Source: Amyelois transitella (taxonomy: Eukaryota; Arthropoda; Insecta; Lepidoptera; Pyralidae). Taken from it: DNA of 64,000 nt. The stretch spans positions 5,669,501-5,733,500 of the forward strand of contig NC_083510.1 of assembly GCF_032362555.1 (NCBI RefSeq). Direction: 5' to 3'. Both the position numbers and the translations under genes were made by a program. The stretch's first letter is position 1. Each line of letters begins with the position of its first letter. The notes beneath the pieces are model-generated. The model had not been told where the DNA came from. It did no database searches and saw only the letters and a program-made list of their open reading frames with translations. Below, piece after piece: positions 204 to 63,135 of the stretch.

Positions 204-6042
<5,839 letters not shown>

Positions 6043-16400: not shown

Positions 16401-19400
16401 CTAGTCGTGGTTCATATATAACCTTTAACGCCCACAGACGAATGTGCAATTTTAAGAGTGAAAAAAATTTCATCATCATCTGTTCTGCATCTCTGAAGAT
16501 TAACCCTTACAAACAAACAAATTTACGTCTTTATAATAAAAGTGTATAGATAATACAATAAATACCTAACTTACCTTCTAAAATAACTCTATTCTTCTTG
16601 CTGCAAAGTAACGCATCATTCTCCTGATATTCTGCTCCCCAAAGCTCCAGTGTGGTAATGGTGGGGTCTCCCAACTGGAACTCTTTGGTGAATACCACGG
16701 CTCCTTCCGGTTCCACCAGTTCTTTGAGCACGTTTCCATTACCGCCCGCACCTTGGTCGTGTATTGCTAGAAATTAAACAACTTATAGGTATTTTTTCAT
16801 CTTTGCAATTTTCCTAAATAGACAGGTCATATATATAAAAATATATAAGTTCAGCAGTGTTTTATTTTACATTTTTACCCTTACCACTGTAATGTTTATA
16901 GTCCGTTTTCTTGAGTGTCTAAACTCTTTCTTAAGCAATAAAAACTTACATTCAACCGGATTGATGTCAGCCTCCAAACAGCCTCTCACGACGCGATTCA
17001 GGCGATTGCCCATTTCAGCATCACCTTAAACATTGAACAAGATATAAAAGTTTTAAGAAATTATAACTTATATATTTAAGGATCAGAATATTTGTAATTT
17101 AAAAATGGTAGAGTTTTGTATAGAGTTGTAGTTTGAACATATTTTAAAAGCAAATCATTATGATATGTATTATTTTTATGATTGGGATCGAAGACAACAC
17201 ACAATGGGTGCCGGTTTTTTTACCGCAGAAATTGTAAAAGTCAATTAAAGAAAAGATTTATAAGATAAGGATGCTTCTTTTAGGCAATAATCCACCTCAA
17301 TCTTTTTACTCAACAAATTGAATCTAATGACTTTTATTTTGACTCTGATTACACCAAAAGACACAGATTTAATTACCTCTTTGCACAGCTCCAAAGTCCA
17401 AAGCATGGTCCCTACCGTCGCCTCCTTGGACCGCGACGGACGAAGCAGCCCCTCCCCCCACCCCGATACGGTACACCGGTCCCCCGATCTTCACCAGTAG
17501 CATACCTTCAATATACATAATAACATATTTAAAAAATCGATCAAGTGCGAGTCTTCGTGGACTAGAGATTCCATACAATCTTAGAATAATAACTGTAAGC
17601 TATAGACTAGATTTGATATAAATTTCAACTATGACCAATGAACTGAACATCATATAAAAGTTAACAAACTTATATTTGCGAGCGTATGCATAAATATTGT
17701 TTTATTTTTTTTATTTTCTATGTTCTATTGTATCTAACAATAAATCCCAAAATATAACTTTTTCCCTTTATTTGTACTATATGTCCTCACTTTGTGCCAA
17801 ATTTCATGATTGTAGGTAACAGGAGTACCCAATAGTTTTGACAGACAGACAGACAGACAACCAACTGATGCAATACAGTTTCCGCTATTTCCTTTCAGCT
17901 GGTAGACTGGCAGAGAATGCCAAACGGCATTAAGTCAGTCTTTTGTACATTTTTTGTGCAATAAAGTTTTAAATTAATAAATAGAAAAAAAGAGATGATA
18001 AGACAGACAGACTGTTGAGCTAGGAACCAGGGGTGCGTTTAAGGTCACGATCCTGCATTGAATAAATCAGGTTTTAACACATAGCGACTTCCTTTCTCTC
18101 TATAATCTTGGCATGTTATCAGTTACATCCACTTTTCGCTTTGTCTGGTCTATAGTGTATATTCAATTCTTAGACTATTGACTACTCCTGTCTCTACCTC
18201 TCTACCAAAATATTTATTTGAATGGACTAACATTTTATCAAACCATTATAACATTATCAGTTAATGTATTGAATTAGTGTGCAAAGTTTTATGTATATTA
18301 TGATGTAATTGTTTTATGATCGTCATAATTTATTTATATTTAGGTAGTTACATTTGTTATATTAATACTACATTACATTATGACAATGAACTTAATTGAC
18401 CTATTAACACATGGAATAATTTACGAATGTACCAATTAAATTGCTTAATAATACCTAGTTATTTAATGTAGAACATTTGTAATTTTCGTCTTTAAGATAA
18501 AATTATTTATTCCAAATAAGGGCAGCACTGCACCACTGAAAATATGAAATGGCTCTTAATAGCAGCAGACCTAGGCGATATGGTTAAAAATGTTTACCTT
18601 TGTCTGGTTTGTTCTTCTTGATCATATCATGGGGCATGTATCCAATGCCACCACTAAACATTATCGGCTTTATGAATTCCTCTCTCACATTGTCGTCATT
18701 TTTCAACCCATAAGATTGAACAAAACCTGCAAATATAAAAATGTTAGTAAGTTAAGTATAGCAATAATGATTTTAGATTGCTGTACAATTTTTAAAAATA
18801 AATTATTCTTTTTGGTACACAGCTAAATAATTCAGCGCTAAAATAAAAAAGGTGTGGTACCTACTTTAAAAGACTTTAAACCAAACCATGCTTCATGATA
18901 TAAGTTTAATTTTTATATAAATACAAAGATTAACGATACCTGATACTACTGGTTCTCCGAATTTGTTGCCATAATCGGAAGCACCATTACTGGCATCGAT
19001 GATAATTTGTAAGGGACTTGCGAAGTTGTTTGGGTATTCCCATCCTTTTTCTTCCCAGGGCAAATCGTAACCTGTAAAAGATTTAACATTGATTATGACA
19101 CTATTTAATTAGAAAAACCACTGAAAAAACTAAAATTACCAGTTAATTCTAGTTTATTAATAGCTACATGTATCCAAGCTGCTATATCAGAATTATTTTG
19201 TCGTCAGCACGATACCATGGCGGTACACGTGACCCATTGGTTACGTATACCTCCATGGTAAAATTTTACCAACCTAGGACTAAACAATGCTGATTAATGA
19301 ATGTATCTATAATGATATGTTTCCAATATATCTCCCGCGACACTATCTCTAAATATAATGTATATTGCCGTCTACTAGGATATCACAAAGAGGTGGCCAA

Positions 19401-32900: not shown

Positions 32901-35768
32901 CAGTGTTTATATATCAAATGATAATATTTGTAGATCGCGCGAACGTCGCCGATCGCTGGAAAGGCGCAGGAGATCGCGGTCTCGCTCTCGACGACGTTCG
33001 AGGTAATTATTTTGATTTTTGTTAGATTTTATTTCGACCATATAACCTGTTTATATATGAAAGGAAAAAGTGCCTCACTTATTTGTCAAACAATAGCCAG
33101 TTAGATGGCTCTTAAATAGTATATATAAAGATAAAAGCCAGTAACATACATGACGGTGTCACGCCAACTACGAAATGTAATAACCAACTACTTGGAAAAA
33201 ACTTCTGCTTTTCCTTATTAAATTTCCAATGAGACTGAAAAAAAAAACGTCAAGATCTCTAGCTGATCAATTTTGAATAATTACTTTTTTTTCTTAGGTG
33301 ATTGGCTACCAATCTGACAATATTTGAATCACAATGCCATCCAGTTGTATATGGGTTCAGTCTTTTTTAAATGATTGATTCTGTCTATCCTTGAAGAGAT
33401 GAAGAAGTGATATATGTATATCTTACAATGATGTATAATTTATGTAGAATTGTATTGGTTTAGATCTCGCGAGCGCATCCGCCGATCCCGCTCTCGGCGT
33501 CGCTCGCGTTCGCGTCGCCGCTCGGGGCGCCTCTCGCGCGACCGCCGCCTCTCACGCGATCGCCGCTCCAGGGATAGACGATCAAGGGATAGGTCCAGGT
33601 AAAGATCGGTTTAGTTTTCTACACTCAAATTGTTCTTTTTTTTATTGACCATGAACGGGCCGGAAGGTTGACAGAGAGACGTGTGGTGGTGTGGTGGTGC
33701 TCCCATTTTCTTCCAAGATTCTTCAACCAACCAACTTTTTCAAAAGTCAATTTTTCAATAATGTCTTTAATGTAGATATAATCATCTATATAGGCAAAGG
33801 AAGTTAAAATTGAAGGAGTAAATCAAGACAAAGATACCCTTATAAAATCTGGGATGTTATGATGAAATCAGGTCATGAGTACCTATAAACCCACAAACTT
33901 GCATAAAAATAAGTATGCAGGAATTGGGGCAAGTGAGAATATGTAGTTTCTGCCTTCCCCTCCGGAAAAGAGGCTCGATGAATGTATGTATGTAATAATT
34001 GTAAAATTGTTTCTTATTTGACAGGGATAGGAAGTCCAAAGACAGAGTTACAAAGGATACACGGTCGCGCGATAGGAAATCACGCGACAAGAGGTCCAGC
34101 GACATCATCAAGGAACGTTTGGAGAAGTCTGTGTCCATACCTAGGAAAGGTTTGTACCATTTATCATAAAAATAATAAAGTTCAAGTTATACCTAGTAAC
34201 ACAAGTCTCGAACTTGCTTCGAAACTAACTCAATCTGCGTCATTTGTCCCATGTATATTTATATTTATTTATTATTTAATGCCTCCACAAATAAATAGAT
34301 TAATTGCAGTTCTTCCATGTGCATAAATTTTTTGATTTGGATATTGGTCAATAATAGTCATATTTAATTGAAATGAATTTCTCTGCTCACAGAAATGGAG
34401 AAACTAAAGAAAAAATCGTTGGATCGTGAACGCGTTTCAATATCAAGGGAAATTTCGAAAGATAGAGTTATTTCCAGCTCAAGCAGAGAATCTTCTGTAA
34501 CACGCGACAAATCAGCATCACAAAACGAAAGCAAGGTGAAGGCGTCTCATTCGTCTGACGAAGATGAAAAGGAAGATTTTATAACTATTCCTACTTTACG
34601 CGAATATTCGAAGAGTCTTTCTCGTACCCCATCGCCATTCCTAAGGAAACATGAGATTGAAAATAATAAAAAAGCGGATAGGTCTGGTGATGATGCTTCT
34701 GGAAAAGATGGACATGTTGAAGAAAATAAAACTAGAGAAAAAGATCCCAAAAAAGGAAAACGTAAACATCAGACCGAATCAGAAAGCGAAAGTAGTGAGG
34801 AAGTTGCTAAATCCAAGAGTAAAGCTAAGCTTAAGCGTAAAGAGAAAGCAACTTCGAAAAGAAGTAAGAAGACCAAAAAAGAGAGTTCTTCCAGTGATAG
34901 CGAATCTGAGGAATCTTCATCAAGCGATTCTGAGGAAGATAGAAAAAAGAAGAGCAAAAAGACATCTAAGAAAAAATTGGCAAAGAAATCCAGGAAAAAG
35001 AGGGCTCGTTCCTCTAGCTCAGATTCTAGCTCAGAGGAGGATGTTAAACATAAAAGTTCAAAGTCTAAACAAAAGAACATTCCAGAGGAATCTGACAACG
35101 ATAAAAAGTCTAAAAAACGTAAAGATGTTAGCGTGGAGCGCTCTAGATCAGAAAAATCGGAAGCAAAGCAGGCCAAATCCAAAAAAGTTGAATCTGAAGA
35201 TTCTCATGATGAAAGTTCAGAAAGTGATGAAAAATCTAATAAAAAGAAATCTGTCAAACGGGATTCTTCTAGTTCTGAAAAGGATGTCAAACGTAGTAAG
35301 AAACTGGACGCTACTAAAGAAAAATTGATTTCACCTGAAACAGGAAAGTCAAAGAAAGGGGATGAAAAAACGGTAAAAGCCAAACACACCGAAGAAGTTA
35401 AAACAAAGTCTAAAGATGAAAGTGAGAAGAGGGGGAAAAAACGCGAAAAAGACGAGTCATCCTCTGAGAGTGATCAAGTTTCTAAAAAGAAACCAAGAAA
35501 AAAGGTTTCAGAGTCGGAGTCTGAATCCGACAGTGATGAGCCTAAAAAATCTAAAAAGAACAAGAAGCACAAGAAACACTCCAAGAAGCATAAGAAACAC
35601 AAAAAACATAAGAAGGCTTCAAAAAAGAAGGACGATTCATCCGACAGTGATGAAGCTGAGGAAGAAGAGGAAGAGGGTAAAGTAAACAATGAGGATTTGG
35701 AGAAAAAATTGCGTGAAAGAGCATTGAAGTCAATGAAGAAACAGACCAGTGCCTCTGGTTCAGATTAG
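26994..35768 (+). CDS. SRRM1: SRRM1 / SRm160 splicing coactivator (PWI and RS domains), complete
   Basis: Nuclear matrix splicing coactivator that bridges SR proteins and snRNPs through its RS region. Fourteen exons: 26994-27008, 27501-27590, 28186-28308, 29281-29451, 29877-29998, 30526-30629, 30848-30998, 31256-31341, 31797-31902, 32498-32635, 32934-33002, 33464-33598, 34025-34149, 34393-35768. Together they encode 936 aa. The first exon is only five codons (MMMYT), followed by GTSTDQDTRFSDKEKKLMKQ as in insect SRm160. The PWI domain spans about residues 28-130: KPWITQKITEILKMEDDVV and INLTGFLNGKNARLFMGEL. Residues from about 135 are Arg/Ser-rich (RSRSRSRSRRRSRE, long ERER runs). The last exon is a Lys/Ser/Glu-rich acidic-basic tail of about 458 codons ending SASGSD. 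All splice phases agree. Most RS exons end in a split AG|G or AG|A arginine codon (phase 2), a likely sign of exon duplication. Confidence 0.96.
27885..28110 (-). repeat. Dispersed repeat family C in SRRM1 intron 2
   Basis: Reverse complement of the family at 44817-45080: shares TATAAAGCTGA, the AATTGGCCATTTATGGAGGAAG-like block and the GGCTATATAACATCACG block. This family begins CTGTGCCCGCGACTTCGTCC in the other copies. Confidence 0.65.
28709..29114. repeat. Inverted-repeat-bounded segment in SRRM1 intron 3
   Basis: GAAAGCCGTTAAGAG at 28709-28723 is the exact reverse complement of 29100-29114. A second inverted pair, GTAGGGAAG and CTTCCCTAC, lies inside. The interior is GC-rich relative to the intron and has no coding frame I can support. 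It may be a MITE-like element. Confidence 0.5.
30105..30352 (+). repeat. Dispersed repeat family B in SRRM1 intron 5
   Basis: Shares the blocks GGATTGGGTGAGTCAGG, CGACTCCTATCTGACCTCC and TGCAGGTTTTCTCACGATG with 45835-46068 and, reversed, 47620-47850. This family recurs at least five times in the window. Confidence 0.65.
32144..32216. repeat. Inverted repeat in SRRM1 intron 9
   Basis: CGCGCGAAAAAC at 32144-32155 is the reverse complement of 32205-32216. The segment is richer in CpG than the surrounding intron. Confidence 0.5.
32650..32840 (+). repeat. Dispersed repeat family B in SRRM1 intron 10
   Basis: Contains GATTGGGTGAGTCAGG, the ACATGAAGTGACCCC block and the TGCAGGGGAACC block, in the order seen in the other family B copies. 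Confidence 0.6.
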
Positions 35769-36060: not shown

Positions 36061-36838
36061 TTATCTTCTTGAGTAACCTCTATATCCTGTGACTAAACTA
36101 GGAGTAACACCACTGTTATAGATATTACCGGTTCTTTTGTTATAATATCCATAGCCCAGATGATATGCGCCTTGGTTATATGGGCTATTGTATCCATAAT
36201 AAGACACTAGTCCACCGTTTCCTCCATAGCCACCATATCCGCCATTTCCGGCAACATTACTTAGGCCATAGCCGCCGTATCTTTTGTAACCGTTGTAGTC
36301 ATTGTAGCCGCCGTTGATCCCAGAATATCCGCCTGAGATCCCGGCGTATCCACCTTGGTTCCCGGCGTATCCGCCGTAGCCAGAGTTTCCAGCGTATCCG
36401 CCATAGCCAGAGTTCCCGGCGTAACCGCCATATCCAGAGTTCCCGGCGTATCCGTTGTAGCCGTACGCGTTGTCATATCCACCGTACCCCCCATAGTATG
36501 AATTGTAGTTGTTATATTTGTCATCTAAAGTGCCGTAGCCCGTAACTCCGTAACCACTATAGCTGCTTGCACTAGGGTAACCGCCCCAATCCGAATAACC
36601 GCGAACATCTGAAGTAAGAAAATGACAAACATCAGAACAAGATTCAATTGAGAAACTAAGATTATGATTCTACATAACTAAAATACTTACACGAGCTACT
36701 AGCGTCAGTAACTAAATCATCTTTTTGTTGATCTACTTGTTTAGGAATCAAGGCCTTTTCTAGATCCGAGGTTTCACTTGGAGCTGCACAGGCATAGCCA
36801 GCTGCTGCCACCAAAACAGTAAATATTCTTAAAGCCAT
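36061..36838 (-). CDS. Secreted Gly/Tyr-rich (GYG) cuticle-like protein
   Basis: Two coding exons, 36691-36838 and 36061-36608, are joined in phase 1 and give 231 aa. The start MALRIFTVLVAAAGYACAAP is a signal peptide with a hydrophobic core. It is followed by an acidic/basic linker (about residues 20-50) and then a Gly/Tyr-rich body. The body contains four near-perfect YAGNSGYGG-type repeats (the last ends GNQ) and later GGYGGYGGNGG. Such GYG-rich secreted proteins are usually structural components of cuticle, eggshell or silk; I do not recognise a specific family and no chitin-binding domain is present. The ATG sits two bases after a good acceptor (TTGTTGACAG), so a non-coding first exon probably lies upstream (right). 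It is convergent with SRRM1. Confidence 0.85.
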
Positions 36839-38368: not shown

Positions 38369-40351
38369 ATGAACTTCGACACAGAGAAATTCATTGTTGA
38401 AATTCAACAACGAGAAGCTATTTGGAATTGTGAAGGAGCAGTTTATAAGAATAGAGATTTAAAACGGAAACAGTGGGAAGAATTAGTAGATATTTTTGGA
38501 AAAGAAGAGATGACAACAGAGGCAAAAAAAAGTCTTGGTAAGTATTTATTATTATTGTTACATATTTTTAAACGAAACTAAACATACTTTAAACATCTTA
38601 GAACATAATAAATAGGTCTATTTTCAGTTAAATCATATTTCTTTGCCATTCTAATTTCCCATCAGTCATAAAATATTCGGCAAACAATTCTCTGTATCTC
38701 AACGCAGTTTTATTGTTCCTTCTTAACCCTTCCTGTGTTACATTTTCTGGCAAAGGGCAACTGAGTGAGTCGTCGAAACAATAGCCATCTCGATCTCTTA
38801 CAAAATTATGTAAGACACAAGTAGCTTTTATGATATCTTTTGCTAGAGTGAATTGAACATTTAGAGGTCTATGAAATATACGCCACTTGTTTGCATAAAT
38901 TCCAAAACTGCATTCTACATATCTTCTTGCTCTAGAAAGCCTGTAATTGAACGTTCTTTTGGTTTCATCCAAATCTTTTTTTGCGTATGGGCGCATTAAA
39001 TTCGTAGATAACGCAAATGCCTCGTCGCCTACAAATACGTATGGGATACATGTCTCGCTGCTTTGTGAAATCGGTTGTGGCTCTGGAATATCCAATTGGT
39101 TTTTTTGCATTTTTTCATAGAAAACCGAATTTTGAAATATTGACGAGTCACTGAATTTACCAAAAGCTCCAATATCAACCATAACAAATTTATAATTACT
39201 GTCGCATATTGCTAATAAAACCAAAGAGAAAAAACTTTTATAAGTAATTAAAACACATCGAGCCACTGTTATTAGGTGCAATGCATCGTATGTGCTTGCC
39301 GTCAACAGCACCTAAGCAGTTAGGAAAATTTGCTCTTTGAAAAAAATCATTGGCAATTTTTTTCCAAGCGTCTTTGTTTGGTTCAGGCAAACAAATATCT
39401 TTCAGACAAAACCAAATTGCAAAACAAACTTCTCGTACGATTTCTGCTACAGTGCTTACTCCAATTTTGAATGTATAATGTAGTTCCGTGAATGTACAAC
39501 CTGTTGCAAAATATCTGAAACAAACATTTTATTATTATTACATGTTTTATTGAATTCAATGACCTATGTATATTCTTTATTGCACATGTCACACGAATTA
39601 CAACAAATCTATTACTTTATGACTAAATCATTAACTTGTTTGTTGTATTGTTCTAGGAAAAGAATTACAAAAGAAATGGAAGAACATTAGGGATAATTTC
39701 GTGAAAGCTCTAAAGGACAATGTTACCAGGAGTGGGTCAGCGGCTAAGAAAAAGACTCAATACATATTTTACAATAATTTAATGTTTTTGAAGGACACAG
39801 TATCTATCAATGAAACTGATTCAAGCATGCAAAGGCAAGAAAATGAAAGAAATGAAACAGAAAACGTAGCTGACCCAGTCGTAGTACCACCGCCAAAACG
39901 AAAAAAAAAGAAAAATAAAGAAGATGATATAGGAGTTGAATTGATTAACGTCTTAAATAAGAATGTAGAGTTGAAAAAGGCGGAAGAAGATGAAGATAGA
40001 CTTTTCTTTTTGTCGTTGGTTAGTGAAATAAAAAAAGTGCCTGAACATATACGCCTACGTACAAAATCTCAAATAATGCAAGTCATTACTGAAGCCCAAA
40101 CGTCTGGATACAACTACTGTAACTCTACTTGGGATTACGTACGACCATTCTACAACCAAGGGCCATCCCAAGGATATCAGACACCATCATTTGCTAGAAA
40201 TAATAACCCACCACCACCGCCCTCAGTTCCACCTACACACCGTGGAACATGTAATCAAGAACAATCTGTAATGTCTCCTGAATCAACATATTCACAGATA
40301 TCTCAAGAATCTGATTATCTAGATCTTTTTAATGATAATAATTCTCAGTAA
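38369..40351 (+). CDS. Harbinger accessory protein with MADF and BESS-like domains
   Basis: Exons 38369-38537 and 39657-40351 are joined in phase 1 (CTTG|GTAAGT ... TTCTAG|GA) and give 287 aa. Residues about 5-90 form a MADF domain: FIVEIQQREAIWNCEGAVYK, then KRKQWEELVDIF and, after the junction, LQKKWKNIRDNFVKALK. A basic stretch PPKRKKKKNK is a probable nuclear signal. Residues about 200-230 (DRLFFLSLVSEIKKVP) resemble a BESS motif. The C-terminus is Pro-rich. In this superfamily the second protein helps carry the transposase to the nucleus and to the ends. The frame is intact, unlike the transposase on the other strand. Confidence 0.87.
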
Positions 40352-48400: not shown

Positions 48401-51400
48401 TTATTTCTGCGACTTGATCATCGCTTTATCGTTCGTTTTGTCGTCCAAAATTCTAGGGTGAACCGCTATTCTGCGTAAGCTTTTCTTCATCGGTTTAATT
48501 TGATTTTTCAGGAGATCTTCTAGCTCGGACAGTGAGCTGATTTCTTTCAAATTATTGAAACTAGCACTGCGCGCTCCATTCCATCTGTTTAGGTAACGGT
48601 ATACATCTCTGTTGTTTGCTTGACACTGAGCACAATTGTATGGTACAGGGACGGCGCTGGGGAAGTTCTGTTGTGCCATGTTCATGCCGGATCCATTTCC
48701 TGGACAGTATGGTACGAAAACTACTGGCACAAAACCGATAATACCATACGGAGCATACGTTGGCCCTGCATTGGCTGGGCTTTGACCTCCCTGTACTTGA
48801 GTCGTGGTGTCATTATTTCCAGGATTCACGAGATAGCATGGACAAGAGCCAGGGCTTGGGACGATAGGAAGTGGGTAGGGTATGACGTAGATGGGGAAAG
48901 GAGGCATTTGACTAGAAGGAGGAACGTAATTTGGCGGCTGTACTCCAGTGCCTGAAGGAGCGCCGACTGAATCCCCACCACCTGGAAGAAATCAAACCAC
49001 TTTGTCAGTCTTTCTTTCGATATAAACCAGTCAACATAAGAAATATTTGTAAAATTTGCGCATTAACATTATGAGAATACTCGTTCGTAGAGTATTTAGG
49101 AATCTCTTTCGGACATGTACCAAAATATTTTTACATTAATTCTTGCGTATACTTCGTTATTAGCAATTTTTTTTAAAGCTATAATGAAATGTTACCTGGT
49201 TGTCCGGGTTGACCTGGTTGTCCGGGTTGCCCAGGTTGACCTGGCTGACCTGGTTGATTCGGACCACCTGGTTGTCCTGGCTGGCTTGGGTATCCAGGTT
49301 GAGAAGGTTGACCACCACCTTAAAGCAAAGATTATATGATAATGATTTGTTTTTGTTAAGGGTCACGCATATTTTGACCCTTGACGAATGTGAATGAAGC
49401 AAACGAAGTATGAAGGGATTGTAAAAAGGGGAACTAGGTATGAATATGATTTCTTAAAAGGTCATGTCCTCTAGGATTTTGTATACACGGCTTTATGGAA
49501 AGGAAAAGTCGCAACGAGGACATACCAGAACTATGATGGCGATTATTTGTAAAAGGTAATTTTTAATAGCATTTGATTACAGTCTTCGATGACTGAGACT
49601 ATAATAATCAGACGGCTAAGGCCAAATTAATTTGTCCTTGCATTCAACAGAAAACATTTACGTATATAAGAATAAGACAGAATGTTAATGTAAGTGCCGT
49701 GTGGTTCCCGGCACCAATAAAAAAAAGAATAGGTCCACTCCATCTCGTTCCCATGGATGTCGTAAAAGGCGACTAAGGGATAGGCTTATAAACTTGGGAT
49801 TCTTCTTTTAGGCGATGGGCTAGCAACCCGTCACTATTTGAATCTCAATTCTATCATTAAGCCAAACAGCTGAGCGTGGCCTATCAGTCTTTTGAAGACT
49901 GTTGGCTCTGTCTACCCCGTAAGGGATAGAGACGTGATCATGTGTGTGTGTGTGTGTGTGCAGAATGTTAATTTCTTGAAAGACAATAATATCTAGATAA
50001 GCTAAGCTACATAAGTCACAATATCGTTCATAATTATATATTTTTTATCCTTATCCAATCTTAGATTAATATAAATAAGTACCTGGGTATCCGGGTTGCC
50101 CTGGGTAACCGGGTTGTCCGGGGCCTCCTTGTTGGCCAGGCTGGCCAGGCTGACCTGGATATCCAGGTTGACCGGGGCCTCCTTGTTGTCCGGGCTGTCC
50201 AGGTTGTCCGGGTTGTCCTGGGTAACCAGGCTGTCCTGGTTGACCAGGTTGCCCTGGGTAACCGGGTTGACCGGGGCCTCCTTGTTGTCCGGGCTGTCCA
50301 GGTTGTCCGGGTTGTCCTGGGTAACCAGGCTGTCCTGGTTGACCAGGTTGCCCTGGGTAACCGGGTTGACCGGGGCCTCCTTGTTGTCCGGGCTGTCCAG
50401 GTTGTCCGGGTTGTCCTGGGTAACCTGGCTGTCCTGGTTGACCAGGTTGCCCTGGGTAACCGGGTTGACCGGGGCCTCCTTGTTGTCCGGGCTGTCCAGG
50501 TTGTCCGGGTTGTCCTGGGTAACCAGGTTGTCCTGGTTGACCAGGTTGCCCTGGGTAACCGGGTTGACCGGGGCCTCCTTGTTGTCCAGGCTGTCCAGGT
50601 TGTCCGGGTTGACCGGGTTGTCCTGGGTAACCAGGCTGTCCTGGTTTGCCAGACTGGCCTGGTTGTCCGGTTTGACTAGGGCCACCTATGAAGCAACATA
50701 ATCCTTAATATACAAGCCTGACCTTAGCATTAACATTAAATAAAGAAAAAAATGACCGGCGAAATACTCTTTTATTATTTTGGCTGTGAACCCAAGTATT
50801 TAAACGATTTTTTCCTTCTAGTGAATAATATGTTCAGACAACAAGACACCTTAGTCTTTCTGTAAAACTATGGCCACTCTGGCTGGTGGCGTTGGTTTAT
50901 TTTGGGTGAATGTCCAGATTCGGAAACAAACTGAAGTAAAGAAAAAGTAAAAACTTACCTGGCTGGCCTGGTTTGCTAGGCTGTCCTGGTTGTCCTGGGT
51001 AGCCGGGTTGTCCAGGCTGTCCGGGCTGTCCTGGTTGTCCTGGGTAGCCGGGTTGTCCAGGCTGTCCGGGCTGTCCTGGTTGTCCTGGGTAGCCGGGTTG
51101 TCCAGGCTGTCCGGGCTGTCCTGGTTGTCCTGGGTAGCCGGGTTGTCCAGGCTGTCCGGGCTGTCCTGGTTGTCCTGGGTAGCCGGGTTGTCCAGGCTGT
51201 CCGGGCTGTCCTGGTTGTCCTGGGTAGCCGGGTTGTCCAGGCTGTCCGGGCTGTCCTGGTTGTCCTGGGTAGCCGGGTTGTCCAGGCTGTCCGGGCTGTC
51301 CTGGTTGTCCTGGGTAACCGGGTTGTCCAGGCTGTCCGGGCTGTCCTGGTTGTCCTGGGTAACCGGGTTGTCCGGGGCCACCTTGCTGTCCAGGTTGACC

Positions 51401-54400
51401 AGGTTGGCCGGGTTGTCCTGGATATCCTGGTTGAGCAGGTTGACCGGGTTGTCCTGGGTATCCTGGTTGACCGGGCTGGCCGGGTTGTCCTGGGTATCCT
51501 GGTTGTCCGGGCTGGCCGGGTTGACCAGTTTGTCCTGGGTAACCTGGTTTTCCTGGAGTACCTGGCTGTCCAGGTTGATTAGGGCCACCTTGTTGTCCAG
51601 GTTGACCAGGCTGGCCGGGTTGTCCTGGGTATCCTGGTTGACCAGGCTGGCCGGGTTGTCCTGGGTATCCTGGTTGACCAGGCTGGCCGGGTTGTCCTGG
51701 GTATCCTGGTTGTCCGGGCTGGCCGGGTTGACCAGGTTGTCCTGGGTATCCTGGTTTTCCTGGAGTACCTGGCTGTCCTGGTTGACTAGGGCCACCTTGT
51801 TGTCCAGGTTGACCAGGCTGGCCGGGTTGTCCTGGGTATCCTGGTTGACCAGGCTGGCCGGGTTGTCCAGGTTGTCCTGGGTATCCTGGTTTTCCTGGAG
51901 TACCTGGCTGTCCTGGTTGACTAGGGCCACCTTGTTGTCCAGGTTGACCAGGCTGGCCAGGTTGTCCTGGGTGCCCTGGTTGACCGGGCTGGCCGGGTTG
52001 TCCTGGGTGCCCTGGTTGACCAGGGTGGCCGGGTTGTCCTTGTTGCCCTGGCTGTCCGGGTTGACCGGATTGCCCTGGTTTGACTGGAGTACCCTGCTGT
52101 CCTGGTTGGCTAGGGCCACCTTAAAAGAACACAATGTAAATTTTAAACAATACATAAGTATATATTGTATAAATTATGTTAATTTTAATAAACTAAAAAT
52201 AATTTTAAAATAATATATTTACCTGGCTGTCCTGGGTAGCCGGGTTGCCCAGGTTGTCCTGGGTGGCCTGGTTGACCGGGTTGTCCTGGCTGTCCTGGAT
52301 ATCCGGGTTGACCGGGTTGGCCGGGTTGTCCTGGATGGCCTGGTTGGCCGGGTTGTCCTGGCTGGCCTGGGTGGGCGGGTTGTCCTGGCTGGCCTGGTTG
52401 ACCGGGTTGTCCTGGTTGTCCTGGCTGTCCTGGGTAGCCGGGTTGTCCTGGTTGTCCTGGGTAGCCGGGTTGTCCTGGTTGTCCAGGCTGGCCAGGTTGT
52501 CCTGGTTGACTAGGTCCACCTTAAAACGAAGAGACATATGGTTTTATACTTCGTGTTGTTTGACAGATAGACCTATCCTTTATTTTCAGTTGTTCGTTCT
52601 CTACATAATTGACTTGTTGCTATTTTATAAATGAAATAGAGTACCCCGTGGCTAAGCACGCTTAGAATAAAAACAACTTTTTCTTCTCACGGGAAATCCT
52701 TTCAATACACCCGGGGAAAATGGCAAAAAATACATACTATGTTTAAATTTTGCAAGTTTGACATAAATTATGGAGAAACTATTTCATCATCTTTATCAGC
52801 CGAAGAGAGGATGATACTCTTGTAAATTTCGTAATTGTTCATCCTCATTTAGGTTCTACGAGGTGGTGAGTGCTACATTCTACCGAAATCGATAGAGAAT
52901 GTGCGCTTAATGACTACCAATGATCACGATCCTCAGCACTGAGTGAGCGACTAAAGAGAAAGATTTTAACATAAAAAGTTTATAAGTATATGTTCTAGGA
53001 ATGACGGAAACTTAAATATTATTACCTGGCTGTCCGGGCTGCCCTGGGTAGCCAGGTTGACCGGGTTGTCCTGGTCCTCCCTGTTGACCGGGTTGTCCTG
53101 GGTGACCGGGCTGTCCGGGTTGTTCGGGATATCCGGGCTGTCCTGGTTGTCCTGGGGTGCCGGGTTGTCCTGGGTGAACGGGCTGTCCGGGTTGTCCTGG
53201 ATATCCAGGCTGTCCTGGTTGTCCTGGGGTACCGGGTTGTCCTGGGTGACCGGGCTGTCCGGGTTGTCCTGGATATCCGGGCTGTCCTGGTTGTCCTGGG
53301 GTACCGGGTTGTCCTGGGTGACCGGGCTGTCCGGGTTGTTCGGGATATCCGGGCTGTCCTGGTTGTCCTGGGGTGCCGGGTTGTCCTGGGTGAACGGGCT
53401 GTCCGGGTTGTCCTGGATATCCAGGCTGTCCTGGTTGTCCTGGGGTACCGGGTTGTCCTGGGTGACCGGGCTGTCCGGGTTGTCCTGGATATCCGGGCTG
53501 TCCTGGTTGTCCTGGGGTACCGGGTTGTCCTGGGTGACCGGGCTGTCCGGGTTGTCCGGGATATCCGGGCTGTCCTGGTTGTCCTGGGGTACCGGGTTGT
53601 CCTGGGTGACCGGGCTGTCCGGGTTGTCCTGGATATCCGGGCTGTCCTGGTTGTCCTGGGGTGCCGGGTTGTCCTGGGTGACCGGGCTGTCCGGGTTGTC
53701 CTGGTCCTCCTTGTTGTCCAGGTTGTCCTGGTTGTCCCGGGTGACCAGGTTGTCCGGGTTGTCCTGGGTGACCGGGCTGCCCGGGTTGTCCTGGGTGACC
53801 GGGCTGTCCGGGTTGTCCTGGATATTCGGGCTGTCCTGGTTGTCCTGGATATCCGGGTTGTCCTGGTTGTCCAGGCTGGCTAGGTTGTCCTGGTTGACTA
53901 GGTCCACCTTAAAACAAAGAGACAATTAGTTTTATACTTCGTGTTGTTTGACAGATAGACCTATCCTTTATTTTCAGTTGTTCGTTCTCTACATCATTGA
54001 CTTGTTGCTATTTTATAAATGAAATAGAATACCCCGTGGCTACGCCCGCTTAAAATAAGAACAACTTTTTCTTCTCACGGGAAATCCTTTTATTATGAAC
54101 ACCCGGGAAAAATAGCAAAAATAAATACTATGTTTACATTTTGAAAGTTTTCCACATAAATTATGGAGAAACTATTTCATCATCTTTATCAGCCGAAGAG
54201 AGGATGATGCTCTTGAAAATATGGTAATTGCTACAACCTCATTTAGGTTCTACGAGTTGGTGAGTGCTACGTTCTACCGAAATCGATAGAGAATGTGCGC
54301 TTAATGACTACCACTGATCACGATCCTCAGCAATGAGTGAGCGACTAATTTTTTTTAAAGAGAGAGATTTTGACATAAAAAGTATACTTATATGTATTTG

Positions 54401-57400
54401 ATCTAGGAACGACGGAAACTTCTTTAGATTTTTTTTTACAGGAGCAAAGCTCCGGGTATATGTTAGTTTGTCAGCATTAATATTATTACCTGGCTGTCCG
54501 GGCTGCCCTGGGTAGCCAGGTTGACCGGGCTGTCCGGGTTGTCCTGGATATCCGGGCTGTCCTGGTTGTCCTGGGGTGCCGGGTTGTCCTGGGTGATCGG
54601 GCTGTCCGGGTTGCCCTGGGTATCCGGGCTGTCCTGGTTGTCCTGGGGTGCCGGGTTGTCCTGGGTGATCGGGCTGTCCGGGTTGTCCTGGATATCCGGG
54701 CTGTCCTGGTTGTCCTTGGGTGCCGGGTTGCCCTGGGTGACCGGGCTGACTGGGTTGTCCTGGTCCTCCTTGTTGTCCAGGTTGTCCTGGTTGTCCCGGG
54801 TGACCAGGTTGTCCGGGTTGTCCTGGATATCCGGGCTGTCCTGGTTGTCCTTGGGTGCCGGGTTGCCCTGGGTGACCGGGCTGACTGGGTTGTCCTGGTC
54901 CTCCTTGTTGTCCAGGTTGTCCTGGTTGTCCCGGGTGACCAGGTTGTCCGGGTTGTCCTGGATATCCGGGCTGTCCTGGTTGTCCTGGGGTGCCGGGTTG
55001 TCCTGGGTGACCGGGCTGTCCGGGTTGTCCTGGATATCCGGGCTGTCCTGGTTGTCCTGGGGTACCGGGTTGTCCTGGGTGACCGGGCTGTCCGGGTTGT
55101 CCTGGATATCCGGGCTGTCCTGGTTGTCCTGGGGTGCCGGGTTGTCCTGGGTGACCGGGCTGTCCGGGTTGTCCTGGATATCCGGGCTGGCCTGGTTGTC
55201 CTGGGGTGCCGGGTTGTCCTGGGTGACCGGGCTGTCCGGGTTGTCCTGGATATCCGGGCTGTCCTGGTTGTCCTGGGGTACCGGGTTGTCCTGGGTGACC
55301 GGGCTGTCCGGGTTGTCCTGGATATCCGGGCTGTCCGGGTTGTCCTGGATATCCGGGCTGTCCTGGTTGTCCTGGGGTGCCGGGTTGTCCTGGGTGACCG
55401 GGCTGTCCGGGTTGTCCTGGATATCCGGGCTGTCCGGGTTGTCCTGGATATCCGGGCTGTCCTGGTTGTCCTGGGGTGCCGGGTTGTCCTGGGTGACCGG
55501 GCTGTCCGGGTTGTCCTGGATATCCGGGCTGTCCTGGTTGTCCTGGGGTGCCGGGTTGTCCTGGGTGACCGGGCTGACCGGGTTGTCCTGGGTGACCGGG
55601 TTGTCCTGGTCCTCCTTGTTGTCCAGGTTGTCCTGGTTGTCCCGGGTGACCAGGTTGTCCGGGTTGTCCTGGATATCCGGGCTGTCCTGGTTGTCCTGGG
55701 GTACCGGGTTGTCCTGGGTGACCGGGCTGTCCGGGTTGTCCTGGATATCCGGGCTGACCGGGTTGTCCTGGGTGACCGGGCTGTCCGGGATGTCCTGGAT
55801 ATCCGGGCTGTCCTGGTTGTCCTGGGGTGCCGGGTTGTCCTGGGTGACCGGGCTGTCCGGGTTGTCCTGGATATCCGGGCTGTCCGGGTTGTCCTGGATA
55901 TCCGGGCTGTCCTGGTTGTCCTGGGGTGCCGGGTTGTCCTGGGTGACCGGGCTGTCCGGGTTGTCCTGGATATCCGGGCTGTCCTGGTTGTCCTGGGGTG
56001 CCGGGTTGTCCTGGGTGACCGGGCTGTCCGGGTTGTCCTGGATATCCGGGCTGTCCTGGTTGTCCTGGGGTGCCGGGTTGTCCTGGGTGACCGGGCTGTC
56101 CGGGTTGTCCTGGATATCCGGGCTGTCCTGGTTGTCCTGGGGTGCCGGGTTGTCCTGGGTGACCGGGCTGTCCGGGTTGTCCTGGATATCCGGGCTGTCC
56201 TGGTTGTCCTGGGGTGCCGGGTTGTCCTGGGTGACCGGGCTGTCCGGGTTGTCCTGGATATCCGGGCTGTCCTGGTTGTCCTGAGGTGCCGGGTTGTCCT
56301 GGGTGACCGGGCTGTCCGGGTTGTCCTGGATATCCGGGCTGTCCTGGTTGTCCTGGGGTGCCGGGTTGTCCTGGGTGACCGGGCTGTCCGGGTTGTCCTG
56401 GATATCCGGGCTGTCCTGGTTGTCCTGGGGTGCCGGGTTGTCCTGGGTGACCGGGCTGTCCGGGTTGTCCTGGATATCCGGGCTGTCCTGGTTGTCCTGG
56501 GGTGCCGGGTTGTCCTGGGTGACCGGGCTGTCCGGGTTGTCCTGGATATCCGGGCTGTCCTGGTTGTCCTGGGGTGCCGGGTTGTCCTGGGGTGCCGGGT
56601 TGTCCTGGGGTGCCGGGTTGTCCGGGTTGTCCGGGGTATCCGGGCTGTCCAGGATGTGCTGGGGCGCCAGGTTTTCCAGGCTGGCCTGTAGTTATAATTG
56701 CAATTGTTATTGGTATGTTGTTAGTTGTAACATAATATTTATTTGTGTAAAAGTAAAAAGCATTATGTAGGTAAAATAAAAGTTTATTATGTAGGAAGTA
56801 AAATGGTGTTTTCAAAAAGGTTCCCTCTGATATAATGCTGGATTTGGAAGAGCACTTTCATAAAAGGATAGGAAGTACAATTTTCTAGTCGTATTGTCAT
56901 CAAAATCTATGTTCTATACGAAAAATTTAGTATGTAGTCTTGATTATTGTGATATTTATCTGGATCACTCTCAATTGAGAACTACTGTACTACTGAGCCC
57001 TAGCCAGACGTAGCCAAATTAAGAAGTGGCCTTCATGAGAAGTAGTCTATTAGCGAGTCGTTGCCATAACGAGAATTAGCCCTAATGCACCTGAACGAAA
57101 ATAACAGGTTACAAGTAATAACTTTATTTCGTAATAAGTGTTTCGTTGACATATAGAAAGGAAGGACTGAAATATATGTTAAGAAATATATATTCTGAAA
57201 TATATATCTATGTGTATAGATAGATGTTGCTTTACCTGTGCCTGGTTGACCGGGGTAGTAAGACCCTGGTGGACCGCCGGGCCCACCTGGGCCACCGGGG
57301 CCACCGGGTCCTCCAGGGCCACCGGGGCCTCCTGTTAAAATACAAAAAAATATTAATACTTTTCACCATTTTGAATGAATTTCTTAAAGTAAATATGTAA

Positions 57401-60400
57401 CGGAGTTTAAATATTTTGCAAAAATTTATAATTAAATGGCCCAGGTTCAAATCCCACCTCGGCCACGTACCATTAACTCTCTGTGTTATGAACAGTCGAT
57501 TGCAACTGGATGTGTTCCTATGATATGGAGCCTTATTGGTATTCATTTTTCTAAACGGAACATATACATAAAATCACACTCCTATTCCGGAGTGGTAGGC
57601 AGAGATTACATCTTTCCACTTGCCATTGTATTATTTCGCTTCATTTACATTCATAACTCTATTCATGCAAGCTTGCCGAATATTGACTGTTCAATATAAC
57701 TAACTAACTAACCTGGGCCACCGGGTGATCCGGGCGTGCCCGGGGATCCTGGTGAGCCGGGTTGTCCGGGGTAGTGACTGCCGGAGCCGGGCGGGCCTGC
57801 TGGTCCTCCTAAACAATAGATATTGATTAAATGAATTTTCAATGTGGTAAAGAGCAACCTTTATTTACCTGAATCATATTGCACTTAAAAATTAATTACA
57901 ATTTTATATTTGGTTCAGTGTTTTTTTTTCTTTATTAAAATGTTTAGGATTCCTGCTATTCATAGAAAATGGCATCAGGAAGGCGGCACGACATGTTTCC
58001 AGCACTTTACATGTTTTAAAGGACCACTTCATCTGTTTTCCATGGTTATGTGTGTAACTTTAACCACGATCCTGAAAAGGTCGCGAAAATCAGACGGGAG
58101 TCACTTCATAAACAACCTTACTTATCTAGGATCATGCGCAAAAAGCGCACCTCGCGATCATTTCCAGAGAGGAGAGTTTAATAGGGTTTACGCCTGGAGG
58201 GAAGAATTGAAGATTGAAAACGAAAATGGTAATACATTACTATAAATACTGTAATTTTAGTGAAAGTTACCTGGACCTCCAGGGTAGTATCCCGGTTGGC
58301 CTGGAGTGCCAGGGGAACCTGGCGTGCCGGGCGAGCCTGGACTGCCTGGTGTCCCAGGCGAGCCTGGGCTGGCTCCTGAGCCGGGGTAATAACCTGGGTA
58401 TCCTCCGCTGCCAGGACCGCCTGGGCCACCGGGACCCCCTTAAACAAGAATAATATTGCTTTAAGCATTATACAAGACCCTACACAGATTTCGCCTTTTG
58501 ATTTTATTAAGAACTTTTCGTCCTTTTCAATCTGATACATATTTTCGTTCCAGAAATAACTAATAAGGAGCCTGTCGATTCCTAATGTCTAAATTATATT
58601 CGTACCAAGATTCATTACAATCGGTCCAGTAGTTGAATGGAATGCGGTTTAAGCATGAATTTTGTGCCATGCAGATTATTATCTTACATTATAAATGTTG
58701 TACAAAAAAAACATGTCTATAATTGTACTGTTGCTAACTGCAACTGCATTGAAATTTAAATTGAATTTTCAATTCGAATTTATGAATTATACCAGTAAAC
58801 AGACAGCTTATTTACAATGATTCGCATTTAATGTTGAATATATTGATATAGGTTTCTATGGTAGAAACAGATCATAACCCTTGTGCAGAAGGTGGTGTTT
58901 GAAATATTAATTTAAGTAAACTTAAAATGTAGTAGCTTTTGATAAATAACAGATTACAATTGTTTTATTCGAATTGCTTCATATATTATTTAAAATACAA
59001 AGCAAGCTTTTAGGGCCCTTAATCTATTATCTTATTATTAGAATTTAGGTATCAATAAATGTGAGTTGTGAATCTATAAATAAAAAAAAAGAATGTAACC
59101 TGGGCCTCCTGGTGAACCTGGACTGCCCGGGGAGCCAGGACTGCCTGGTGAACCTGGGTAGTAGCCGCCTTGAGCTGAAATTAAATATTTTTCATTCATG
59201 TATTCAAAAAGATTCGTTTGTTTTGAAAGATAAAATTCATGATCATTTTTTGACGGCCTCTGTGGCGCAGCGGTAGTACGCTTGTCTGTGACACCGGAGG
59301 TCCCGGGTTAGAATCCCGGTCCCGGACATGATGAAAAAAGAACTTTTTCTGATTGGCCTGGGTCTTGGATGTTTATCTATGTATGTATTTATTATAAAAT
59401 ATTGTATCCTTGAGTTAGTATTTCGTAATAAAATATTGTATCCTTGAGTTAGTATTTCGTAACACAAGTCTCGAACTTACTTCGAGGCTAACTCAATTAG
59501 TGTAATTTGTCCCGTAAAAAAAAATGATGTGAATAATAATACTGGTTTAGATAAATTTAATATGTTATGAGAAACAGGCTTTTGCCGATCGGACACATGG
59601 CGACTTTAAACATGTTAACTCATGTTCAGTCAATGTCTAAACTATATGACTGCAAAGTTTCATGAAAATTCGTTCAATACTTAGTTAATTTTTTTTATTG
59701 ATGAAAAATTAACAATTAAAACATTCAAACACCCTTACAAAGTCGCATTTATGATATATGTAGAAAGAATTATTATTGTATTTATTCTAGTATTATTCTG
59801 AGGATGCAATAATGGTTTTATATGTCTATTTATGTTTATTTGCTTACATGGTCCATTAGGTCCATTAGGGCCACCTGGTCCTCCAGGGCTACCGGGTCCG
59901 CCGGGTCCACCTGGGCCACCTAGTGAAAAAAAAAATCCAAATAATTGTGAGGTTTAATATGATAAAAAGACATATAAACCGTAGACCTAGCGAACACATT
60001 TGAGAATAGTGGGACTACGGGTAAAAAAAAAGTCCCCTTGGTTTCCTTGGCGCGACAACGTAGTACCAAGGGTAAAAGTCGAGAAGACATTGGGCTTTCA
60101 GAACGACATTACGCGGTTTAATTTTATATCGATTACACGTGCGATTAAGTAAATAATCTGACAACATATTTACAGAAAATGACTTCTGTAAATATGTTAA
60201 CAGATGTAATTTATCCATTTTAATTTTTTTTGTACTTATATGTATAAGTTCTAAAGTAATGAGTTGATAAATAATTAATAATTCTACATTATATTATAAG
60301 CGATCATACCTGGGCTGCCTGGTGATCCAGGACTACCTGGAGATCCAGGTGTGCCTGGTGTACCGGGATAGTAACCTCCTTGCCCTGAAATATATACAAA

Positions 60401-63135
60401 CAATTTATAAAGTCTGTACATATACAAAATATGTAAAGAATCAAATTGTTTGTTTAAAAATTATAGATCGCCAGTGTTTATAATATAGCGATATGTTCGA
60501 AATTAGACTAGTAAAAAGTTCATCAATAATTTGAAAGTGATAAATATTGTCAGTTTTTTAAAATAAATTTAGTTAGTAGGCATATTATAAAATTATGCGG
60601 GAATCTACATACATGGTCCATTCGGTCCACCGGGTCCATTCGGTCCTCCAGGTCCATTTGGCCCACCTGGGCCTCCAGGTCCGTTAGGGCCATTTGGTCC
60701 ACCTGGTCCGCCAGGTCCGTAAGGGCCATTTGGTCCACCTGGTCCATTAGGGCCATTCGGGCCGCCTGGGCCTCCTGGTCCACCACCAGCTCCTCCAGCA
60801 CCACCTGTGTTAAAAGTGAAGTTTAACCGTGTCTTTAGGTTTTATAAAAATACTGTCAGAAAACAGTGAAATAAGTATTTGACAGTATTTTCATATATAT
60901 CAGAGAATAAGTTACAATTAACTAAAATTTATCGTTTAGCAAACGCTTAAGAGAGGCGACAGGTTAATACAAATTTGGATTATTAAATTCATCTTACATT
61001 ATAAGATGAATTTGATAGTTTAATTTTGTATTTATTTAATTTGTATCTTTGCTATATATACAAAAATTATTCATCATATCTTCTCTTGTGCCTATGAAGT
61101 AAGTAAAAAAATACCTTGACCAGGTGCAACGACTCCAGGGCTGGGGTTCGTGTTCTGACCGCTGCTGTCAGTCGGTGGGCGCGGTGGCCGCGTGGGTCTC
61201 GGCGGCGGCTTGGGAGGGACGCCGCCAGGGGTGCGACCGCAACCCTTGGGGAAATATAGCTTCTCCCAGGGTATTATCTGCCCTGGAACCTTTTCAGTCG
61301 GCTGGTTTGATGTTCTGGATATGAAAGAAGAGAATTTTGATTACGCAAAGATTGTTGGTTTCACTTGTAGTCCATATAATAGATTGAAGAGTTCATCTAA
61401 AGAAAACATCGTCAGAAAAGTAATTGAGAAATATATTGAGGCTTGGTAAGATTTACCTTCATCCAATAATAAATACCTTGTGTATTAGGTACATCATTAG
61501 TTTATTCTGTGCAGGTGGTCACCGATACTCATGGACTTTTCTTAATCAAATTAAAAAGAAAGGAGAATATTTTGTACTTATTTATTTTATCTTACATTTG
61601 AAGGGCTCAGGATCCGTCACGATGCACAATTGGGAATCAAGCGGACATGCTGTTTGCCCTCCTTCACCTGAGTGGGACTTGATCCAATTGGGATCAATGT
61701 TACACATACTGATTTGTTACAGTTGCCTGATCACACTTACGTTTCGTCGTACTCGTATTTTTCATCCGGGTACACTTCGACGGGTTTGTTTGGCTCGACG
61801 ACCCGGTAACCGTGGCTGTCGGCTACATAGTGTGTAGCTCGGAGGTATCCGTCAGGGTCTACGTAACCGTAGCAACCGTATGTCACGCCGTCGGGCCCGC
61901 GGGTCTCATGATGGAACTGGCCGTTGGGACCCACGTCATAACCGAAACCATATGCGTCTGAAATTAAGTCATTTATGGTCAAAATGTAGAGGTCAAAGTG
62001 TAGTCGTCTAGTGACTGGTAAGAATTAGTTACCGTTTAGGTAGCTTATTAAAAAGTGCACGATATAAAATGAATTTTATCTTTTGGTTTACACCTTGTAT
62101 ATTTTATAAAGATGTATAATTAAGTGAGAATCCCATAACAAAAGTCTTGAAATAATTTTTGGGCTTGGGGCATGCTCAAACTGGAGTATTTTGTTCCTTA
62201 AATATTTGTATAATAGATGTTATTGTTAAAACCAGAATAGACGCTTCATAGTAGAAATTATGGAGGTGGGTCATCAAATAATTAACGAAGTTTATAAGTG
62301 TTACTGGAAACACGTAAGCACAAAATTTATTCCCTCGCGTCGAGGATAAGAATAATATGCTTAATATTAGCAGTCGTAACACCACGCAAACATGTTTTTA
62401 TATTGTATTTAGATCGTCTTATTAGGAAAGAAATAAGATTTTACTAATTTTGCGCAAATAGCTCGTTGTAGTCCAATAAAGCGATTTTTTTGTAAGAAAC
62501 CCGAAATAGTAACATATATAAGATTTAGGAGATTTATTACACGTCTGGAATTCCTTGGAATGTCCCACTAAGACCTTGCTCAGTCAGATAGCCTGTTTGT
62601 CGGGTTGCGGTGGATAACAAATTCGCCAACTGCCTCCAGTGGACAGGATGATAAACAAAGGTACAGAAACCAACAAAACGCATTGTTTGGAATCTGAGAC
62701 GAGCAAGTTACAATTTACCTACATATGTTATCGATGATTCATATGTGTGTAGCAGAATGACGGCAAAACTAAACAAAAAAGAAAGAGACCTGCCACCGAA
62801 AATCTAATCTAATTGCTTTATTTCTGCAGTGAAAATTGAAAACTAAACTTCTATCAATGGAAACATCATAAAGATATTTATTTCTTTTTGTTCTAATATG
62901 TTGGTGAATAAATGTACTGCTTACTTGTGTCATAATTGGTTTCATAGTATTGGTTCTTCTCGTCATCTTGAATGTCGATGACGATATCCTTTGCGTCGCC
63001 GTAGCCGAATTGTCTTCCAGCCCGTGCCGAAGATTCTGCCGGCTGTGTCTCCTTTTCTGAGTTGCCTTCATTGGCTATTTGGGTATTATTCTTCGTTGGC
63101 GGCGCTTCACTAGCTATGGCTAGCACTAGCGATGC
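48401..63135 (-). CDS. Giant cuticular protein: R&R chitin-binding domain plus about 2000 aa collagen-like GXY repeat (5' exon unresolved)
   Basis: Seventeen exons: 62925-63135, 61741-61957, 61115-61314, 60613-60804, 60310-60384, 59848-59919, 59100-59174, 58271-58438, 57713-57808, 57236-57331, 54490-56685, 53026-53907, 52223-52519, 50959-52119, 50083-50685, 49196-49318, 48401-48981. They give 2414 aa without the first exon. Order: rest of a signal peptide ([13 protein letters not shown]); an acidic spacer; an R&R chitin-binding domain ([19 protein letters not shown], then [18 protein letters not shown]); a Cys/Pro linker ([25 protein letters not shown]); GPN/GGP and GSP/GTP triplets; a huge [12 protein letters not shown] rod; and a non-repetitive tail with Cys pairs ending AMIKSQK. 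From the linker exon on, all junctions are phase 1 and frame is kept throughout. The R&R family binds chitin; the collagen-like rod suggests an extracellular cuticle fibre, which is inference. I know no named gene for this combination. Confidence 0.85.
49690..49960 (+). mobile_element. Full-length SINE family A with target-site duplication
   Basis: Lies in the intron between the exons ending 50083 and starting 49318. Flanked by the 12-bp direct repeat CAGAATGTTAAT at 49678-49689 and 49961-49972. The head is GTAAGTGCCGTGTGGTTCCC, and the tail is GTAAGGGATAGAGACGTGAT followed by (TG)n. This is the best reference copy of the family in the window. Confidence 0.87.
50083..50685 (-). repeat. 99-bp coding minisatellite exon
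   Basis: This exon of the collagen-like gene is about four to five tandem copies of a 99-bp (33-codon, 11-triplet) unit. The unit contains CCTCCTTGTTGTCCGGGCTG on the plus strand (PGQQGGP on the coding strand). The copies differ at few positions, for example GGTTACC versus GGTAACC. Confidence 0.85.
50980..51375 (-). repeat. 45-bp coding minisatellite
   Basis: Eight or more nearly identical tandem copies of a 45-bp (15-codon, 5-triplet) unit, [15 protein letters not shown] on the coding strand, in the 3' third of the exon 50959-52119. The rest of that exon has longer, more diverged units containing GTPGKPG. Confidence 0.85.
52223..54489. repeat. Tandem duplication of an exon with its upstream intron
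   Basis: The intron right of the exon 52223-52519 (52520-53025) and the intron right of the exon 53026-53907 (53908-54489) are near-identical over long stretches. Examples are GTTGTTTGACAGATAGACCT, GAAACTATTTCATCATCTTT and ACCGAAATCGATAGAGAATG. The second copy carries an extra block of about 60 bases near 54420-54478. The two exons also start alike (GGPSQPGQP). Confidence 0.88.
53026..53907 (-). repeat. 72-bp coding minisatellite exon
   Basis: Tandem 72-bp (24-codon, 8-triplet) units: coding-strand order [20 protein letters not shown] with variations (GEP-like changes, Thr or Val at some sites). It is the same unit as in the exon 54490-56685. Confidence 0.8.
54490..56685 (-). repeat. 72-bp coding minisatellite exon, largest array
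   Basis: A single 2196-bp exon (732 codons, 244 triplets) built mostly from 72-bp units encoding [20 protein letters not shown] and GQPG. The right (5') half is almost perfectly homogenised. The left half has variant units with [10 protein letters not shown] inserts. The coding frame stays open throughout. Exact copy number should be treated with care because arrays like this collapse in assemblies. Confidence 0.88.
57555..57690 (-). mobile_element. LINE 3' tail fragment in an intron of the large gene
   Basis: CATATACATAAAATCACACTCC, then GTGGTAGGCAGAGATTACATC and CATTCATAACTCTATTCATG. This is a diverged match to the LINE end at 22780-22900. Confidence 0.65.
57975..58205 (-). repeat. Dispersed repeat family B, diverged copy
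   Basis: Shares the AGGCGGCACGACATGTTTCC-like start, the TCAGACGGGAGTCACTTC block and a terminal GCCTGGAGGGAAGAATTGA with 47620-47850. Weaker than the other copies. Confidence 0.45.
59253..59520 (+). mobile_element. tRNA-derived SINE
   Basis: The head GACGGCCTCTGTGGCGCAGCG holds an A box (TGGCGCAGCGG at 59263-59273) and a B box (GGTTAGAATCC at 59306-59316, one change from the consensus GGTTCGAATCC). The body (TTTTTCTGATTGGCCTGGGT) and tail (CTCAATTAGTGTAATTTGTC) match the interrupted copy at 23401-23914. A 34-bp stretch in the body is tandemly duplicated at about 59396-59463. It lies in an intron of the large gene. Confidence 0.87.

Follow-up and report, generated by a model that had tools for sequence, protein, structure and literature searches.

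The locus examined here raises the question of whether a chitin-binding domain and a collagen-like rod of some 2000 residues belong to one insect protein, and what kind of material such a protein would form. The usual picture of insect cuticle is one of chitin together with short CPR proteins, with collagen confined to basement membranes. The locus is found in Amyelois transitella, on the minus strand at positions 63135-48401 of the window (the whole stretch of 64,000 nucleotides that was analyzed). Unless a contig is named, coordinates below refer to this window.

Gene model and neighboring features

The gene model was derived from the genomic sequence only, by splice sites and reading frame. 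Exons 2-18 join through AG acceptors and GT donors into a single frame of 2414 residues without a stop codon. The initial annotation had spliced the same 17 exons and 2414 residues in one frame, and the 13 rod exons for which it gave about 2012 residues come to 2013 residues in the rebuilt model. A candidate exon 1 brings the total to 2424 residues. The mature mass would be approximately 231 kDa if the chain is cleaved before EAPPTK, a cut site chosen by eye.

Exon 2 (62925..63135) encodes the remainder of the predicted signal peptide (ASLVLAIAS) and an acidic N-terminal linker. The R&R consensus (Chitin_bind_4) is in exon 3 (61741..61957), with the aromatic triad YGFGY and one Cys residue. 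Exon 4 (61115..61314) is a Pro/Arg-rich linker with one Cys residue. The rod begins in exon 5 (60613..60804) with GGP and GNP triplets, and exon 7 (59848..59919) resembles this exon. Exon 6 (60310..60384) combines YYPG with GSP and GTP triplets and is resembled by exon 8 (59100..59174). The junction of exon 8, with its weak donor GTTACA, is the least certain of the gene model. Exon 9 (58271..58438) is a mixture of GSP, GTP, and YYPG, exon 10 (57713..57808) contributes 96 bases and 32 residues, and exon 11 (57236..57331) contains GGP. Exon 12 (54490..56685) has 2196 bases and encodes 732 residues of a Gln-rich Gly-X-Pro rod, which continues through exons 13 (53026..53907; 882 bases), 14 (52223..52519; 297 bases), 15 (50959..52119; 1161 bases), and 16 (50083..50685; 603 bases). 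The rod ends in exon 17 (49196..49318). Exon 18 (48401..48981) encodes a 192-residue tail that contains five Cys residues, and then the stop codon (48403-48401); an AATAAA begins 43 bases past this stop.

The introns leading into exons 2, 3, and 4 are in phases 0, 1, and 2. All 14 introns after exon 4 are in phase 1 and interrupt a codon, in most cases a Gly codon, after the first base. Skipping or duplication of rod exons therefore keeps the frame.

Exon 2 starts in phase 0 within a hydrophobic stretch. A scan of the 20.2 kb upstream gave 21 candidate ATG exons. One of these, encoding MGPGIAFYIL (contig C6:5745001-5744972, minus strand, outside the window), lies 12.3 kb upstream of exon 2, has the donor GTAAGT, and ranks second of the 21 in hydrophobicity; MTIDLISLC (C6:5740709, donor GTGAGT) ranks first. 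The promoter script, which was run for the MGPGIAFYIL candidate only, found a TATA-like box with an initiator-like TTAGTT 33 bases on, and a 132-base leader free of upstream ATG codons. This candidate is the likely exon 1 and would supply the start of the signal peptide. A signal peptide is thus likely, contingent on this exon. Another ATG exon, at position 3202 of L009, has TATA- and initiator-like sites by eye; it ends in phase 1, is incompatible with exon 2, and was rejected.

Several other features were observed in the window. An open frame of 202 residues at 36061-36669, on the same strand as the giant gene, is rich in Gly and Tyr with GYAGNSGYGGY repeats. It has no Pfam match and may be a glycine-rich cuticular protein. 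Two adjacent open frames at 7439-8626 (plus strand) resemble an insect FADD gene: one domain match is to a death effector domain, at 30.7 bits and thus below its cut-off of 35.9, and the other is to a Death domain, at 43.8 bits and above its cut-off of 22.6. A DDE_Tnp_4 transposase (99.5 bits) at 38628-39311 on the minus strand, with an open frame on the opposite strand at 39635-40351, is perhaps part of a Harbinger-like element. Exon-like open frames on the minus strand at 600-6100 and 11000-22200, three of which were run against Pfam without a match, resemble pieces of the genes for glycine decarboxylase and formylglycinamidine synthase. At 34377-35768 (plus strand) there is a Ser/Lys/Glu-rich open frame of 463 residues, also without a Pfam match.

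The chitin-binding head and the tail

The initial annotation had recognized an R&R domain and proposed the Pfam PF00379 profile as a check. In the head this profile, Chitin_bind_4, is the only Pfam match; it covers residues 79-140 and scores 51.8 bits (cut-off 25, E 1e-13). In the genome profile search the domain scores 57 bits. The R&R consensus is defined by an aromatic triad at its start and G-F/Y near its end (PMC2259329). Both marks are present, as the triad YGFGY and as HGYRV near the end. By profile and by consensus, the predicted protein belongs with the CPR cuticular proteins. The top-scoring other R&R domain in the genome is 48% identical and belongs to a 416-residue open frame that has no Gly-X-Y rod. 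A PDB search with the R&R stretch returned three weak matches, the best being a designed protein (E 0.084); another was 9l0p, annotated 'Chitin binding protein' (E 0.24).

Like members of the CPR family, the protein has its R&R domain close to the N-terminus, complete with the triad and terminal G-Y, and a low-complexity flank; a likely signal peptide would be a further resemblance if the candidate exon 1 is right. It differs in size. Mature CPRs of Anopheles gambiae have 87-837 residues, with a mean of 169 (PMC2259329), so that at 2424 residues this protein is nearly three times as long as the longest of them. The unusual length pointed out in the initial annotation is borne out against this range, which is that of one insect. 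It also differs in its Gly-X-Pro flank and in having seven Cys residues; mature Anopheles CPRs are nearly devoid of Cys (0.03%; PMC2259329).

Five of the seven Cys residues are in the tail, in line with the Cys-bearing end described earlier. The tail also has hydrophobic, Pro-rich segments. It matched nothing in Pfam or the PDB, where no recognized trimerization or collagen end domain was found, and it is single-copy: the genome search returned only the tail itself. A scan of viral_contigs with the tail gave one match of 31 residues, which was judged to be chance. A role for the tail in trimerization is a guess.

The collagen-like rod

The 2013 residues of the rod in its 13 exons include 698 Gly, 637 Pro, 417 Gln, 90 Tyr, and 49 His. 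In the first 258 residues (the early rod), GGP, GNP, GSP, and GTP triplets are interrupted by YYPG. The register changes five times in the early rod and once more near exon 17, as counted in a model without exon 10. From residue 478 onwards, 572 successive triplets keep a single register, with Gly in 550 of them and Pro at Y in 547; the earlier statement that nearly every Y is Pro in this Gln-rich part is thereby substantiated. The X position is mostly occupied by Gln (382), Tyr (76), His (48), and Thr (38), so that Tyr and His together account for 124 of the 572. Gly is replaced 22 times, by Ser (10), Ala (3), Glu (3), Val (3), Asp (2), and Asn (1). The main rod has Pro at 94% of Y positions and at 2% of X positions, 24% Gln, and 0.7% charged residues. 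At a rise of about 0.29 nm per residue, this 1716-residue stretch would be approximately 0.5 micrometers long if fully extended.

The Pfam Collagen profile (PF01391), also proposed in the initial annotation, was above its cut-off in all four of the large Gln-rich exons run, of five in total, at 108-413 bits (exon 12, 413; exon 13, 158.9; exon 15, 211.4; exon 16, 108.2). A 220-residue piece of the early rod gave no match. The longest perfect Gly-X-Y run has 196 triplets, whereas no run exceeds 11 triplets when the rod is shuffled 200 times (model without exon 10), and the pattern is therefore not due to chance. All five large Gln-rich exons (2196, 882, 297, 1161, and 603 bases) are multiples of nine in length, as is one of the eight remaining rod exons (6 of 13 overall). 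The Gln-rich part contains 125 Tyr and His residues, spaced by 9 or 15 residues in 84 of 124 intervals. Such spacing would suit dityrosine or quinone cross-linking. His and Lys are mentioned in connection with sclerotization in PMC2259329.

Could the rod be merely a DNA minisatellite? We compared 51 repeat units of 24 codons, each with at most three differences from the unit. Between these units, pS is 0.41, pN is 0.07, and pN/pS is 0.17, a ratio to be read as a guide because the selection of units somewhat lowers pN. Column by column, the third bases of the Gly and Pro codons vary and the first two bases vary little. The Gln-rich part has 412 Gln codons, each one transition away from a stop codon, and no stop. 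The difference between pS and pN and the stop-free Gln codons argue that the rod is not merely a minisatellite. The opposite strand also has long open frames, some stretches of which match Pfam Collagen with TGA stops inside. These frames are a side effect of the composition, GGN-CAR-CCN.

The introns before exons 13 and 14 (54489-53908 and 53025-52520) are 89% identical over 515 aligned bases. Exon 14 probably arose by duplication together with its intron, and the array has grown through duplication. The two introns may also serve as a clock for the duplication of rod exons. The repeat unit is a multiple of nine bases, and slippage alone therefore keeps the register, which makes the register weaker evidence for a helix.

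The genome profile search covered 327 Mb in 33 contigs and gave at least 150 R&R matches and at least 129 collagen matches. It also gave 16 matches to Chorion_1, the family of silkmoth eggshells, in keeping with a lepidopteran genome. Among the R&R and collagen matches listed, compared by eye, only this locus has both; the next nearest pair among them, on C18, is separated by about 370 kb. Eight stretches at other collagen loci were read, a set that leaves out the clusters at C10:7334560, C10:7711564, and C9:11883847. In six of these the triplets are mixed, Pro takes 26-36% of Y positions, and 18-33% of residues are charged, compared with the 94% and 0.7% given above. The other two are simple repeats of GPP or GGP; at one simple-repeat stretch, C29:1139000, the strand that the script scored is not the one with the Pfam match. 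Two collagen loci with charged triplets, C1:6904719-6910983 (minus strand) and C1:6929893-6938042 (plus strand), are arranged head to head on opposite strands, as are the paired collagen IV genes in other animals.

In the open-access literature, we found no R&R protein with a collagen rod of such a build; annotated lepidopteran orthologues may exist. Of the four open-access papers that contain the rod motifs, including GQPGYP, none is a cuticle paper by title. Stick insects have a small number of cuticular-protein genes with a collagen domain (PMC13301680, in a passage that does not state whether an R&R domain is in the same protein). Because of this report, we do not claim that the combination of R&R and collagen is unheard of.

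Assembly, alternatives, and meaning

We favor, with moderate confidence, a secreted CPR-type protein of the cuticle whose collagen-like rod would be anchored to chitin and open to cross-linking. The R&R head would fix one end of the protein to chitin, which R&R domains bind. A prolyl 4-hydroxylase of the secretory pathway would hydroxylate the prolines at Y. Three chains would then assemble into a triple helix largely like that of collagen, with disulfides between the tails perhaps holding it together. On the Gln-rich part, Tyr and His at X would be exposed on the surface of the rod and become cross-linked through dityrosine or quinone chemistry. The outcome would be a long, hydrated, Gln-rich tether between chitin layers in flexible cuticle or another chitinous matrix. 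The R&R head, the long rod, and the Cys-bearing end described in the initial annotation are supported, whereas the new class of cuticle fiber that it suggested stays a proposal. The parts of our reading differ in strength. A cross-linkable rod anchored to chitin is probable. That it is a triple helix with hydroxyproline has, in our estimate, slightly less than an even chance. The full claim of a true triple-helical, prolyl-4-hydroxylated collagen, recruited to the lepidopteran exoskeleton, bound to chitin by its R&R domain and a substrate of an epidermal prolyl 4-hydroxylase, is doubtful.

The enzyme C-P4H modifies prolines at Y (PMC12433258). A gene set from the molting epidermis of Bombyx includes prolyl 4-hydroxylase among its modifying enzymes, and cuticular proteins were proposed as its substrate (PMC2542385). 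In the A. transitella genome, two pieces at C13:7109350-7110190 match the prolyl 4-hydroxylase alpha N-domain (P4Ha_N), with 47.6 and 45.8 bits against a cut-off of 25.3. Both pieces have in-frame stops inside the scored stretch, and they may be exon pieces running into introns or a decayed copy. The catalytic family 2OG-FeII_Oxy_3 has two matches of ambiguous identity on other contigs, C17 and C15. An intact prolyl 4-hydroxylase gene is therefore not demonstrated. Pro is almost absent at X (2%), so the stability of a helix would depend wholly on hydroxylation. To our knowledge, fibrillar collagens do not tolerate replacement of Gly by Glu, Asp, or Val. The 22 replacements in 572 triplets, which include all three, appear to count against a triple helix, as do the register changes of the early rod and the early-rod piece without a Pfam Collagen match.

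The same replacements would be tolerated in an elastomer, that is, a hydrated single chain in polyproline-II or beta-turn form, anchored to chitin through its R&R domain, cross-linked through Tyr and resilin-like in function. The scarcity of Pro at X and the failure to find a trimerization domain in Pfam or the PDB also agree with such a chain, and an R&R domain with Pro/Gly-rich, Tyr-bearing repeats is the plan of resilin (PMC12426002), which we regard as the closest functional analogue. However, the resilin motifs given in that source (EPPVxxxYLPP, GYSGGRPGGQDLG, and YGAP) each occur zero times in the model without exon 10, and none is seen by eye in the 32 residues of exon 10. The triplets here are strict and the repeats of resilin longer, and an elastomer has no obvious need for Gly at each third residue across 572 triplets. 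We consider the elastomer possible but not probable. The same molecular plan might instead serve a chitinous matrix other than body cuticle, for example in the trachea, the peritrophic membrane, the egg, or the cocoon. The sequence does not point to any one tissue, and seven Cys residues stand against 0.03% Cys in mature Anopheles CPRs (PMC2259329). Such a location is unlikely from the family itself. R&R proteins are chiefly cuticular.

Alternatively, the locus may comprise two genes or more that were joined on paper only: exons 1-4 would be a short CPR gene, and the collagen-like part a gene of its own. The model comes from genomic sequence, exon 1 is a candidate, the donor of exon 8 is weak, and the introns contain zero to four AATAAA each. 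However, exon 4 ends in phase 1, precisely as the rod exons require, and no stop codon closes the head ahead of the rod. The stop is in the last exon, followed by its AATAAA, and by eye the tail has no obvious signal peptide of its own. Separate genes are thus very improbable, and we regard one secreted protein that contains both the R&R domain and the rod as highly probable.

The favored chitin-anchored rod can be set beside known systems. With collagens, such as insect collagen IV and sawfly collagen silk, it shares the Gly-X-Y register, Pro at Y, large exons in multiples of nine, and split Gly codons. It differs from them in being almost uncharged, in its 24% Gln, and in its chitin-binding head, and no known collagen end domain was found in it. 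Because no end domain was found, we class the rod as collagen-like and not as collagen. The rod of mussel byssal preCols is likewise collagen-like and fused to unrelated functional ends; those ends are elastin-, silk-, or His-rich, whereas one end here is chitin-binding. Sawfly silk collagens are small Gly-Pro-Pro chains, with hydroxyproline and a triple helix according to the review PMC12976744.

As a natural polymer design, the rod is rich in Gln, built on Gly-X-Pro, almost free of charge, and set with Tyr and His at regular intervals. It would give the prolyl 4-hydroxylase of the molting epidermis (PMC2542385) a concrete candidate substrate. A 231-kDa protein that binds chitin at one end and is mostly collagen-like would unite the themes of cuticle and collagen. 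If the rod is indeed triple-helical and hydroxylated, the exoskeleton would contain a chitin-collagen composite.
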